The notes beneath the pieces were generated by a model, which did not search any database, was not told the origin of the DNA, and saw nothing but the letters and a program-made list of their open reading frames with translations. Both the position numbers and the translations under genes were made by a program. Positions 26,763-29,103 of a stretch of 64,000 nucleotides of DNA are shown one piece after another. Every line of letters starts with the position of its first letter. Position 1 is the stretch's first letter. Origin of the DNA: Chitinophaga niabensis (GTDB lineage Bacteria; Bacteroidota; Bacteroidia; Chitinophagales; Chitinophagaceae). The stretch covers positions 811,001-875,000 of the forward strand of contig NZ_CP154260.1 in assembly GCF_039545795.1 (NCBI RefSeq). Reading direction: 5' to 3'.

Positions 26763-28133
26763 ATGACAGAAGCTAAAAAGAACCGCCGCGAATTCCTGAA
26801 GCTTTCCATGATGGGAGGTGCCGGAGTTGCTCTCAGTGCAATGGGGATGCCAGCGAGCAGTTATGCACGTATTATTGGAGCCAACGACCGTGTGAATGTA
26901 GGCGTGGTAGGCTATTCTGACCGTTTTCGCCAGGCCCTCATGCCTTGCTTTCTGAAGAATCATAAAGAACTGAACTTTGATATCATCGCCGTTTCCGATA
27001 TCTGGAACCGCCGCCGTGAAGAAGGTAAAGCCGCACTGGAAGGCAAACTGGGCCATAGTGTTCAAACCTGCGTGAACAACGATGAGCTGTATAAGATCAA
27101 AGACCTCGATGCAGTAATGATCGCTACAGCAGACTTCCAGCATGCCTTCCATACCATTGAAGCGGTAAAGAATAAGAAAGACGTTTACTGCGAAAAACCT
27201 TTCGCGGAAACAATGGAAGATGCCCGGAACGCGCTCAAAGCAGTAAAGGAATCTAAAAAAGTTTTCCAGGTAGGCACGCAACGCCGCAGTGGTGCCAGCT
27301 ATCATGCCGCAGCCAACTTCATCAAAGAAGGAAAGTTCGGCCCCATCACCATGGTGGAGATGACCTGGAATGTAAACCAGCCCGGCCGTTGGCGCAGACC
27401 GGAACTCACAAAATCGATCAAAGAATCAGATGTGGATTGGAACCGTTTCCTCTGCAACCGCCCCAAAGACAGCTGGGATCCGCGTAAATATTTAGAGTTC
27501 CGCCTTTTCTGGCCATACTCTTCAGGTATCTTCGGCCAATGGATGACGCACCAGATAGATACTGTACACTGGTTCACCGGTTTGCAGCATCCGCGCAGTG
27601 CAGTAGCAAATGGTGGTATCTACCAATGGCAAGATGGCCGCAGCAATGCAGATACACTCACCGCGGTATTCGATTACGGTCCGCAGAATGATCCTAAGAA
27701 TGGCTTCCAGGTAGTATACAGTTCCCGCTTCCACAACTCAGCAGGGGGGACAAAAGAACTCTACTATTCCAATGGTGGCATGATAGACATGAGCACAAAC
27801 AAAATTAGTCCTACCGGTGGTCTGAGAGAAAAAGAAGCAGCTGAAATGGGTATGAAAGCAAATCTCCTTCCCAGCATGGACCTTTCCAGTGTAGCTGCTT
27901 CTATTGAAACCAGCGCCAACACAGGCGGAGATGATACTACGGATGCGCACGTACGTAACTGGATGGAATGTGTGCGCAAACAGGATGTTAAAACAAACGC
28001 TCCCATTGAAGCGGCCTATTCTCACTCAATAGCGCTGATCATGGGTACCGCTGCATATCGTACTGGCCAGAAAGCTACTTTCGATGAAGCTAAACAAGAC
28101 GTAATTGTTGGAGGCAAAGTATTCACACTCTAA
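26763..28133 (+). CDS. Tat-exported Gfo/Idh/MocA family oxidoreductase
   Basis: 456 residues. The N-terminus has a Tat signal (NRREFLKLSMMGGAGVALSA), so the protein is likely folded with its NAD(P) cofactor before export. The Rossmann domain follows (VNVGVVGYSDRFRQAL), with the family catalytic lysine in DVYCEKPFAETMEDA and the substrate-domain pattern SSGIFGQWMTHQIDTVHWFTG. Such enzymes oxidise or reduce sugar hydroxyls, and exported versions have been linked to 3-keto-glycoside metabolism; the substrate here is unknown. It shares an operon with the TIM-barrel isomerase. Twelve bases after its stop lies the first of two long hairpin elements. Confidence 0.9.
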   Translation: MTEAKKNRREFLKLSMMGGAGVALSAMGMPASSYARIIGANDRVNVGVVGYSDRFRQALMPCFLKNHKELNFDIIAVSDIWNRRREEGKAALEGKLGHSVQTCVNNDELYKIKDLDAVMIATADFQHAFHTIEAVKNKKDVYCEKPFAETMEDARNALKAVKESKKVFQVGTQRRSGASYHAAANFIKEGKFGPITMVEMTWNVNQPGRWRRPELTKSIKESDVDWNRFLCNRPKDSWDPRKYLEFRLFWPYSSGIFGQWMTHQIDTVHWFTGLQHPRSAVANGGIYQWQDGRSNADTLTAVFDYGPQNDPKNGFQVVYSSRFHNSAGGTKELYYSNGGMIDMSTNKISPTGGLREKEAAEMGMKANLLPSMDLSSVAASIETSANTGGDDTTDAHVRNWMECVRKQDVKTNAPIEAAYSHSIALIMGTAAYRTGQKATFDEAKQDVIVGGKVFTL

Positions 28134-28144
28134 CTAAGTGCGCC

Positions 28145-28242
28145 GAAACCAGTATATGTATTTTTTTAAGGAAAAAACTAGCCCAATGTTGCGCTTAGGC
28201 AGTACGGAGAGCTTTCCTTAAAAAAATACATATACTGGTTTC
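28145..28242. repeat. Hairpin element A: perfect 30-bp inverted repeat with conserved 38-nt loop
   Basis: The arms 28145-28174 and 28213-28242 are exact reverse complements over 30 bp and enclose the 38-nt loop 28175-28212. The inner stem contains TGTATTTTTTTAA. The loop begins AAACTAGCCCAAT and goes on TTGCGCTT and GGCAGTA; inside it AGC, CAA, TTG and GCT can form a small nested hairpin. The same loop, in reverse orientation, occurs in element B at 28386-28487. The T-run lies within the 5' arm and not after the hairpin, so this is not a standard intrinsic terminator. Confidence 0.93.
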
Positions 28243-28385
28243 TCTTTTAGTTCCGGTGTTTGCAGGCTCAACGGTATTGATACATCTTTTAGCAAAGCAG
28301 CTGGTTCTCACAGGTTACAGGCATTATCCTTCCATCCCCTCCACAAACCCGCCAAGACCTCATCCCACATTAACGGTAGGCCCAG

Positions 28386-28487
28386 GAAAATAAAGGGTGT
28401 GTATTTTTTTAATAAATTCTGTCTTTACTGCCAAAGCGCAATATTGTGCTAGTTTATTTATTAAAAAAATACACACCCTTTATTTTC
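28386..28487. repeat. Hairpin element B: perfect 31-bp inverted repeat, inverted relative of element A
   Basis: The arms 28386-28416 and 28457-28487 are exact reverse complements over 31 bp around a 40-nt loop. Read on the minus strand, the loop matches element A at 27 of the first 30 positions (AAACTAGC, CAAT, TTGCGCTT and GGCAGTA are shared), and the inner stem again has TGTATTTTTTTAA, while the outer stem halves of A and B are unrelated in sequence. The right arm includes the stop codon and the final lysine codon of the minus-strand PaiB gene. About 143 bp without recognisable content separates A and B. Confidence 0.93.
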
Positions 28488-29103
28488 GCCCCCGTCTTAA
28501 TTCCATCTCGGAAGCAATCCGGTGAGAATGATCATCTCCAATCTCTTTCAGATGATCCACCACACTGAAATAATCGTGATCATTCCTGTTCTGGCTAAGC
28601 TTAAACCGCGTATCCACCCTGTCTACACTGATCTCAAAACCAGTGATCGCTTTAAGGTTATTTTGGAATTCCTTAGCAGGAATATCATGCACATGCACCG
28701 GGTTTTCAGACCCCGCTTCGTAGTGCTGCATGAGTTGATGAAGTGACTCAGCCAACTCAGCTTCAGAGAGAACGCGCAGCACACCGTAAATATGCACCGC
28801 TATGTAATTCCAGGTAGGGATCTTCCCCTTTTCATACCAGGAAGAAGAAATGTAAGCATGCGGGTCCATGAATACAACCATGAAAGTCTGCCCGCTTACA
28901 AAGGTGGCAGACTGATCATTGGCATTGGCAATATGCCCATGGAGCACAAACTTACCCGGCGTTTTTTCAACTAATTCAATGGGAAGATGTGTGCCGATAG
29001 GAAGGCCGTCATGTATACTGATCAATAACCCGAAACCATTCTGCCGGATAAATGCAGCAACTGTTTCCCAGTCCTTTTCCTCATTGTACTTAGGGCTATA
29101 CAT
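28480..29103 (-). CDS. FMN-binding negative transcriptional regulator, PaiB family
   Basis: 207 residues with a split-barrel flavin-binding fold. The PaiB pattern is clear: YSPKYNEEKDWETVAAFIRQ at the start, GLLISIHDGLPIGTHLPI, HGHIANANDQSATF, MVVFMDPHAYISSSWYEKG and PTWNYIAVHIYG. In Bacillus the homologue is linked to control of sporulation and protease genes; in Bacteroidota it may simply be a flavin-dependent oxidoreductase or pyridoxamine oxidase-like protein. Its 3' end is part of hairpin element B. Divergent from the RDD gene with 43 bp between starts. Confidence 0.9.
   Translation of the reverse strand: MYSPKYNEEKDWETVAAFIRQNGFGLLISIHDGLPIGTHLPIELVEKTPGKFVLHGHIANANDQSATFVSGQTFMVVFMDPHAYISSSWYEKGKIPTWNYIAVHIYGVLRVLSEAELAESLHQLMQHYEAGSENPVHVHDIPAKEFQNNLKAITGFEISVDRVDTRFKLSQNRNDHDYFSVVDHLKEIGDDHSHRIASEMELRRGRK

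Follow-up and report, generated by a model that had tools for sequence, protein, structure and literature searches.

Intergenic hairpins with conserved loop ends and jointly changing arms in a few Chitinophaga species: a probable case of arm-to-arm DNA copying

The window analysed here is a stretch of 64,000 nucleotides of Chitinophaga niabensis (NCBI RefSeq assembly GCF_039545795.1, contig NZ_CP154260.1, positions 811,001 to 875,000 of the forward strand); the genome that holds it, a single contig of 7.2 Mb, is called G000 below. Two hairpins, A and B, are located between an oxidoreductase gene and the gene of an FMN-binding protein:

26763..28133, + strand: gene of a GFO_IDH_MocA oxidoreductase (Pfam PF01408), which stops 11 bp before hairpin A
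28117..28144, no strand assigned: AAGTATTCACACTCTAACTAAGTGCGCC, the end of the oxidoreductase gene including its stop codon, with the leader to hairpin A; a near-same stretch stands at the second pair of G000, at 1.256 Mb
28145..28242, + strand (loop sense +): hairpin A, perfect 30-bp arms at 28145-28174 and 28213-28242, 38-nt loop AAACTAGC..GAGAGC; model match at genome positions 839145-839242, + strand
28243..28385, no strand assigned: 143-bp spacer between A and B, the first part of which (TCTTTTAG..GGTATT) resembles in alignment the spacer of the second pair of G000, the remainder aligning poorly
28386..28487, - strand (loop sense -): hairpin B, perfect 32-bp arms at 28386-28417 and 28456-28487, 38-nt loop; model match at genome positions 839386-839487, - strand
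28480..29103, - strand: gene of an FMN_bind_2 protein (Pfam PF04299), the last 8 bases of which overlap the outer end of hairpin B

The arms of A and B are 100% complementary and the two hairpins are inverted relative to each other. The initial annotation had described two perfect inverted hairpins 143 bp apart with agreeing loops, and both the complementarity and the loop-pattern counts confirm this: the loop pattern CTAGCNCAATNTTGCGCTTNGGCAGTA has three sites in G000 at no more than 3 mismatches, as against none for the reversed control. The sizes it gave are right for A (30-bp stem, 38-nt loop) but not for B, which has a 32-bp stem and a 38-nt loop instead of 31 bp and 40 nt. When six sequences were folded (four hairpins, two of them on both strands), the z-scores were -11.1 to -12.1 and none of 200 shuffles folded as well. 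In both hairpins the T-run lies in the 5' arm and the A-run in the 3' arm, which differs from an intrinsic terminator with its GC-rich hairpin and trailing U-tract. TGTATTTTTTTAA is common to A and B, and their outer stems are unrelated. A second convergent pair was found in G000 at 1,255,829-1,256,136 with the same two stem subtypes; the stems of A and B, earlier called unrelated, thus do differ in their outer parts, but they represent two subtypes that recur together.

Covariance-model searches, with one model built from 4 copies of G000 and then one from 23 copies, revealed 46 hairpins in 5 of 79 Chitinophaga genomes: 14 in G000, 11 each in G003 and G061, 7 in G053 and 3 in G021. The loop therefore occurs elsewhere in G000 and in related species, as the initial annotation expected of an element family. 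What is supported is a family of small mobile hairpins that do not code for protein, keep their loop and have arms that are free in sequence but almost perfectly complementary. It should be noted that the genus-wide count of 5 in 79 comes from model R1, run with stricter filters and 51 scored candidates in each genome, whereas the more sensitive model R2, with 150 candidates, covered G000 and 8 other genomes, so that weak copies elsewhere may be missed; since the models reward pairing, badly decayed copies are under-counted. To judge from the open-access literature and Rfam, which is short of a full literature search, the family of small intergenic hairpins to which A and B belong, found in a few Chitinophaga species, appears not to have been described. 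In Rfam, 8 weak matches were found, none of which reached its gathering cut-off.

The loops across the family share the framework AACTGGGC...GGCA...GGGCACAG, which can be written out as AACTGGGC-nnTGTnnTTTnnGGCAnTGGGCA-CAG, where AA is a bulge followed by CTG paired with CAG; the AA bulge beside CTG/CAG is nearly fixed among the copies. Across the family the loop is conserved mostly at its two ends, and the middle palindrome AGC-CAA-TTG-GCT seen in A and B is not general. The arms are 23-33 bp long in all 45 scored copies, AT-rich near the loop and otherwise free in sequence: 36 distinct 5' arms occur among the 45 copies, stems are mostly unrelated between subfamilies, and, with the AATAAGC subfamily set aside, the 31 copies left have a mean arm identity of 51% for the inner 23 positions and of 43% for the outer 13. 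The unit is an arbitrary palindrome of about 30 bp around a loop of about 35 nt with the ends AACTGGGC...CACAG, often present as two convergent units approximately 105-290 bp apart.

Several look-alikes were set aside. An exact hairpin pattern, which fixed part of the stem, found 4 hairpins in G000 and none in 59 other genomes of the genus. A strict-pattern scan of genome contigs gave 7 loci, of which only those in C. barathri (L096, L097) and C. chungangae (L091) are true; the other four pair at 11-15 of 28 positions, and the strict pattern misses several subtypes. With a loose loop pattern, 25 sites were found in the five carrier genomes and none with the reversed control; 16 lie in hairpins and 9 elsewhere, and the 7 of these 9 that were checked are without a comparable stem (8-16 of 28 pairs). 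The 40 pattern matches in viral contigs all lack a stem, pairing at 5-14 of 28 positions where true copies pair at 25-28, and plasmids and phages gave no pattern match. An R2 search across 294 genomes of the bacterial family scored just 14 candidates in each, so that its near-lack of matches counts for little; the sole one beyond G000, found in G262, looks like an ordinary terminator and was rejected as a family member. The matches in G078 were likewise left out of the 46 copies as different palindromes. That genome carries very long perfect or near-perfect palindromes with arms of 94 and 62 bp and GCAAAG-rich repeats (L030, L040), which are unrelated to the hairpin family.

Close inspection of the surroundings showed that the position of the family is intergenic and not specifically convergent. 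Twelve pairs, in G000, G003, G021 and G061, are intergenic inverted doublets with convergent loops in 11 of the 12, and they are found between convergent, tandem and divergent genes, so the convergent gene ends earlier proposed as the setting do not hold for the family. G000 and G053 have 16 single copies; for 15 of them, crude ORF calls place the end of a same-strand gene 10-86 bp upstream, and the sixteenth is behind the orthologue of a gene with a sense copy in G000. Three further single copies, in G003 and G061, are also downstream of a same-strand gene, while two others (G003:359496 and G021:627873) are not behind a same-strand stop. A role as strictly 3'-end elements was dropped once the tandem and divergent pairs were seen.

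The positions of the single copies are one reason to consider a structured RNA or 3'-end element, such as a terminator, an RNA stabiliser or a protein-bound loop, with a stem maintained through selection on the pairing of the RNA. The conserved pairing and the fixed loop ends are consistent with such an element, and in some copies the loop with its flanking A- and T-tracts resembles a weak terminator core. The pairs between tandem or divergent genes and the two copies without a same-strand stop argue against it, as do the failure of any Rfam family to reach its gathering score and the finding that in 7 of the 12 copies listed a seemingly complete classical terminator precedes the hairpin.

At the window locus, the two genes enclose a hairpin pair in four genomes (G000, G021, G003 and G061) and one remaining hairpin in G053. 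The same two genes are separated by a short spacer in G012, G059, G025 and G020, which by eye is an ordinary terminator, and in G062, G060, G007 and G009 the neighbours are other genes. A tree of one gene (13 rows, the G053 row being cut slightly off frame and used as DNA) groups G000, G053 and G021 and, apart from them, G003 and G061. Because its deeper order is not resolved, a single gain with losses and independent gains are not distinguishable. Between the two species groups the stems at this locus share little, yet each is perfect or nearly so. For hairpin B, 14 of 31 aligned pairs differ between G000 and G003 on both sides and none on one side only.

These comparisons also bear on the idea that the pair arose by a simple recent duplication of one hairpin, which the near-identity of the second pair's subtype A to hairpin A, flank included, would suggest. 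For A versus B this is refuted, as they have little outer stem in common and the pair stands at the same locus in three other species (G003, G061 and G021), with stems in G003 and G061 that differ from those of G000. The initial annotation had held that an outer stem conserved among further copies would mean such a duplication; in general the further copies have no common outer stem, and that outcome did not arise. We regard duplication as extremely improbable.

Comparison with relatives, which had been proposed at the outset, revealed empty sites in sister species. At positions 4,255,823, 707,714 and 507,110 of G000, the hairpin is missing from the fetched orthologous stretches of sister species, and the pair at 1.256 Mb is missing in G053 and G021, where a short terminator-like hairpin is found instead. 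On side A, the insert at 1.256 Mb includes the 3' end of the gene next to the window pair, and a similar likeness on side B is weaker. The AATAAGC subfamily has the common ends CCGCTCCC/TCCGCTGGT in 10 of the 10 copies listed, which lie after different genes in G000 and G053, in 7 cases behind a seemingly complete terminator. Taken together, the dispersed near-identical copies, the empty sites and the carried gene end indicate that the units move and that some of the adjoining sequence can be copied along with a pair. A MITE of a DDE transposon would share terminal inverted repeats with an autonomous element and have a target-site duplication; the empty sites have diverged too far for a duplication to be read. 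A different history applies at 5,888,689, where G053 seems to have lost sequence between T-runs by a deletion that spared the hairpin end; the presence of the hairpin there is therefore older. In G053, downstream of the gene matching that at 507,110 of G000, a minisatellite with units of about 80 bp (CTTGCCACGCAGCAGAGAGCGGAGG..., L150) occupies the place where G000 has a hairpin, and a second intergenic site (L146, L147) has related stretches, GCGCAGCA..GGGCGG.

We then turn to how the arms change. Among 23 distinct copies, 97.2% of the cells pair, and the covariation is 0.739, compared with 0.155 in shuffled and at most 0.150 in slid alignments. The 23 aligned copies contain 233 cells changed on both sides and 1 changed on one side; the both-sided number is 63 in shuffles and at most 69 when slid. 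Because RNA pairing tolerates G.U but not A.C, the type of intermediate, G.T or A.C, is what separates copying from RNA compensation. In 45 copies, with position 1 left out since its pairing is ambiguous, the stems contain 1274 Watson-Crick pairs, 5 G.T (0.4%), 9 A.C and 14 other pairs; with position 1 included, the numbers are 1315, 6, 16 and 15 (46 copies). One copy (G061:1050021) was dropped from the pair counts, ungapped scoring having stopped after 5 pairs, which leaves 45 of the 46. In terminator-like hairpins at the same loci, G.U makes up 10.8-13.6% of the pairs: 33 of 306 in the 32 clean ones, and 73 of 537 when bulges are allowed and the number of hairpins rises to 52. A wider terminator control (101 G.U in 647 pairs of 62 hairpins, 15.6%) held loop cores of the family and non-classical folds, and 5 such cores were dropped. 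The co-variation is thus nearly free of G.U, and G.T is not above A.C, so the selection on RNA pairing that the initial annotation offered as one option is not supported. A structured RNA does not explain the co-variation well, and we consider it unlikely as an account of the family.

Orthologous stems were compared as well. In nine comparisons between G003 and G061 (o1-o9), 57 pairs changed on both sides and 6 were scored as one-sided, the six being 2 substitutions (o4, o9) and 4 that are due to two 1-nt bulges (o3, o6); the sum leaves out o6b, o10, o11, o12, o13 and the G000/G003 comparisons. Unchanged are 201 of 264 stem pairs and 240 of 317 loop columns, 76% each. In o7, o8 and o12, net length changes are equal in both arms and are flanked on both sides by conserved sequence. 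That both arms change together, length included, is a further point against a stem held by RNA pairing. In one case (L046 versus L142), G003 and G061 have the loop in opposite orientations at the same place, which also speaks against a structured RNA; this hairpin adjoins a gene that we take to be GlgB.

The same observations weigh on a DNA-binding or cruciform site, in which a protein recognises the loop of the extruded hairpin and selection on DNA pairing keeps the arms perfect. The scarcity of G.T would be expected if a perfect DNA duplex were needed, and the conserved loop ends with their nearly fixed AA bulge would suit a recognised loop. However, the o1-o9 stems are as diverged as the loops, which is faster than expected from two-step compensation, length changes that match in the two arms would hardly come about step by step, and mismatched copies persist and spread. 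In our judgement a cruciform site, too, has a low probability.

The mismatches allow a view of the intermediates. Stems are perfect over the whole scored length in 20 of 45 copies and from position 2 onward in 25 of 45. One A.A mismatch is retained in nine copies of the AATAAGC subfamily, and the hairpin A copies in G053 and G021 carry A.C mismatches. Given these incompletely perfect stems and retained mismatches, correction is not immediate. At one orthologous site the G000 copy has the A.A mismatch, whereas the G053 copy is perfect there and has one further both-sided change. The close relatives of hairpin A show 1 both-sided and 2 one-sided changes in each of the comparisons o11a and o11b, o13 shows 0 and 2, and o10, with two decayed copies, 7 and 4; the numbers are 2 and 0 for o11p, 4 and 1 for o12, and 2 and 1 for o12p. 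One-sided changes are proportionally commoner in closer relatives. From these alignments a mutation appears to be one-sided at first and evened out later, a course that would fit copying but also slow compensation.

We consider it probable that these are mobile intergenic hairpins whose arms stay paired because one arm is copied from the other by quasipalindrome template switching. The near-absence of G.U together with the both-sided changes fits template switching better than selection on RNA pairing, and the copying of one arm from the other, an option that the initial annotation had raised, gains support from these two features and from the loop inversion; the copying itself we infer from its footprint in the sequence. 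In the proposed mechanism, a replicating polymerase at the hairpin would switch template and copy one arm from the other, so that a substitution or indel in one arm would be transferred to the other arm in one step. The loop, being outside the copied arms, would evolve normally under whatever constraint keeps its conserved ends, and these ends point to some function or recognition beyond what arm copying supplies. Movement might be brought about by a transposase acting in trans on the loop or by template-switch copying between sites. A related possibility, which we hold to be rather doubtful, is a mobile element whose identity lies in the loop and whose recognition depends on nothing else; one arm would be regenerated from the other whenever the element moves or is replicated, through a hairpin-primed single-stranded intermediate and without a Y1 transposase, the palindrome being a rewritable, sequence-free part.

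It has long been asked by what means extended stems remain paired although their sequence changes, and the Chitinophaga hairpins provide a natural bacterial series for this question: dozens of stems of about 30 bp, together with their orthologues, intermediates that carry mismatches, empty sites and an inverted loop, which make the alternatives separable. Strong covariation, the usual proof of RNA structure, can come from DNA copying, and the scarcity of G.U is its tell-tale. We regard the family as real and as a variant of the small mobile palindromic repeats. Template switching that makes quasipalindromes more perfect is described as established in E. coli (PMC7202029), and the Chitinophaga stems are suited to an E. 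coli reporter. For RNA stems, template switching has been proposed, loop inversions included (PMC8794818). The likeness to both extends to arms made identical by copying, both-sided changes and the occasional inversion of a loop; the difference is that those cases concern single-site mutations or mostly short rRNA stems, whereas here a mobile family with stems of about 30 bp bears the footprint in five species. The coding palindromes of Nematomorpha mitochondria are similar in being long perfect inverted repeats with arms that evolve in concert, but they lie in mitochondrial protein genes (PMC6649704), and they are not known to share a loop or to form a dispersed family.

Among mobile palindromes, the closest in layout are REP/REPIN (BIME) elements, which are small intergenic palindromes, often in inverted pairs with a spacer, dispersed as non-autonomous units. 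The double-hairpin or repetitive hairpin elements of mitochondrial DNA are small mobile paired hairpins as well, but of organelle DNA, unlike those of Chitinophaga. A REP/REPIN-type element moved by a RAYT (Y1) transposase would have the inverted palindrome pairs with spacer, the intergenic position, the many copies and the conserved recognition sequence that are described as REPIN architecture (PMC3116915). Y1_Tnp (PF01797), however, has no match at E 0.001 in G000, G003, G021, G053 or G061, although G001 and 5 of 14 control genomes match, and the tags GTAG and CGTC each occur in only 3 of 46 copies (within 12 nt, both strands), scattered and at no fixed place. The stems of 23-33 bp are at least twice as long as the 5-13 bp given for REP stems (PMC3733652) and largely free in sequence, and it is the loop ends that are conserved. 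The REP/BIME-like membership suggested earlier is accordingly not supported and is very unlikely; to revive it would take a highly diverged HuH enzyme that acts on the loop. Between two divergent genes (L138 versus L143), G061 has a pair with one hairpin decayed, where G003 has a single hairpin in which 4 pairs are non-Watson-Crick and which may be a fusion.
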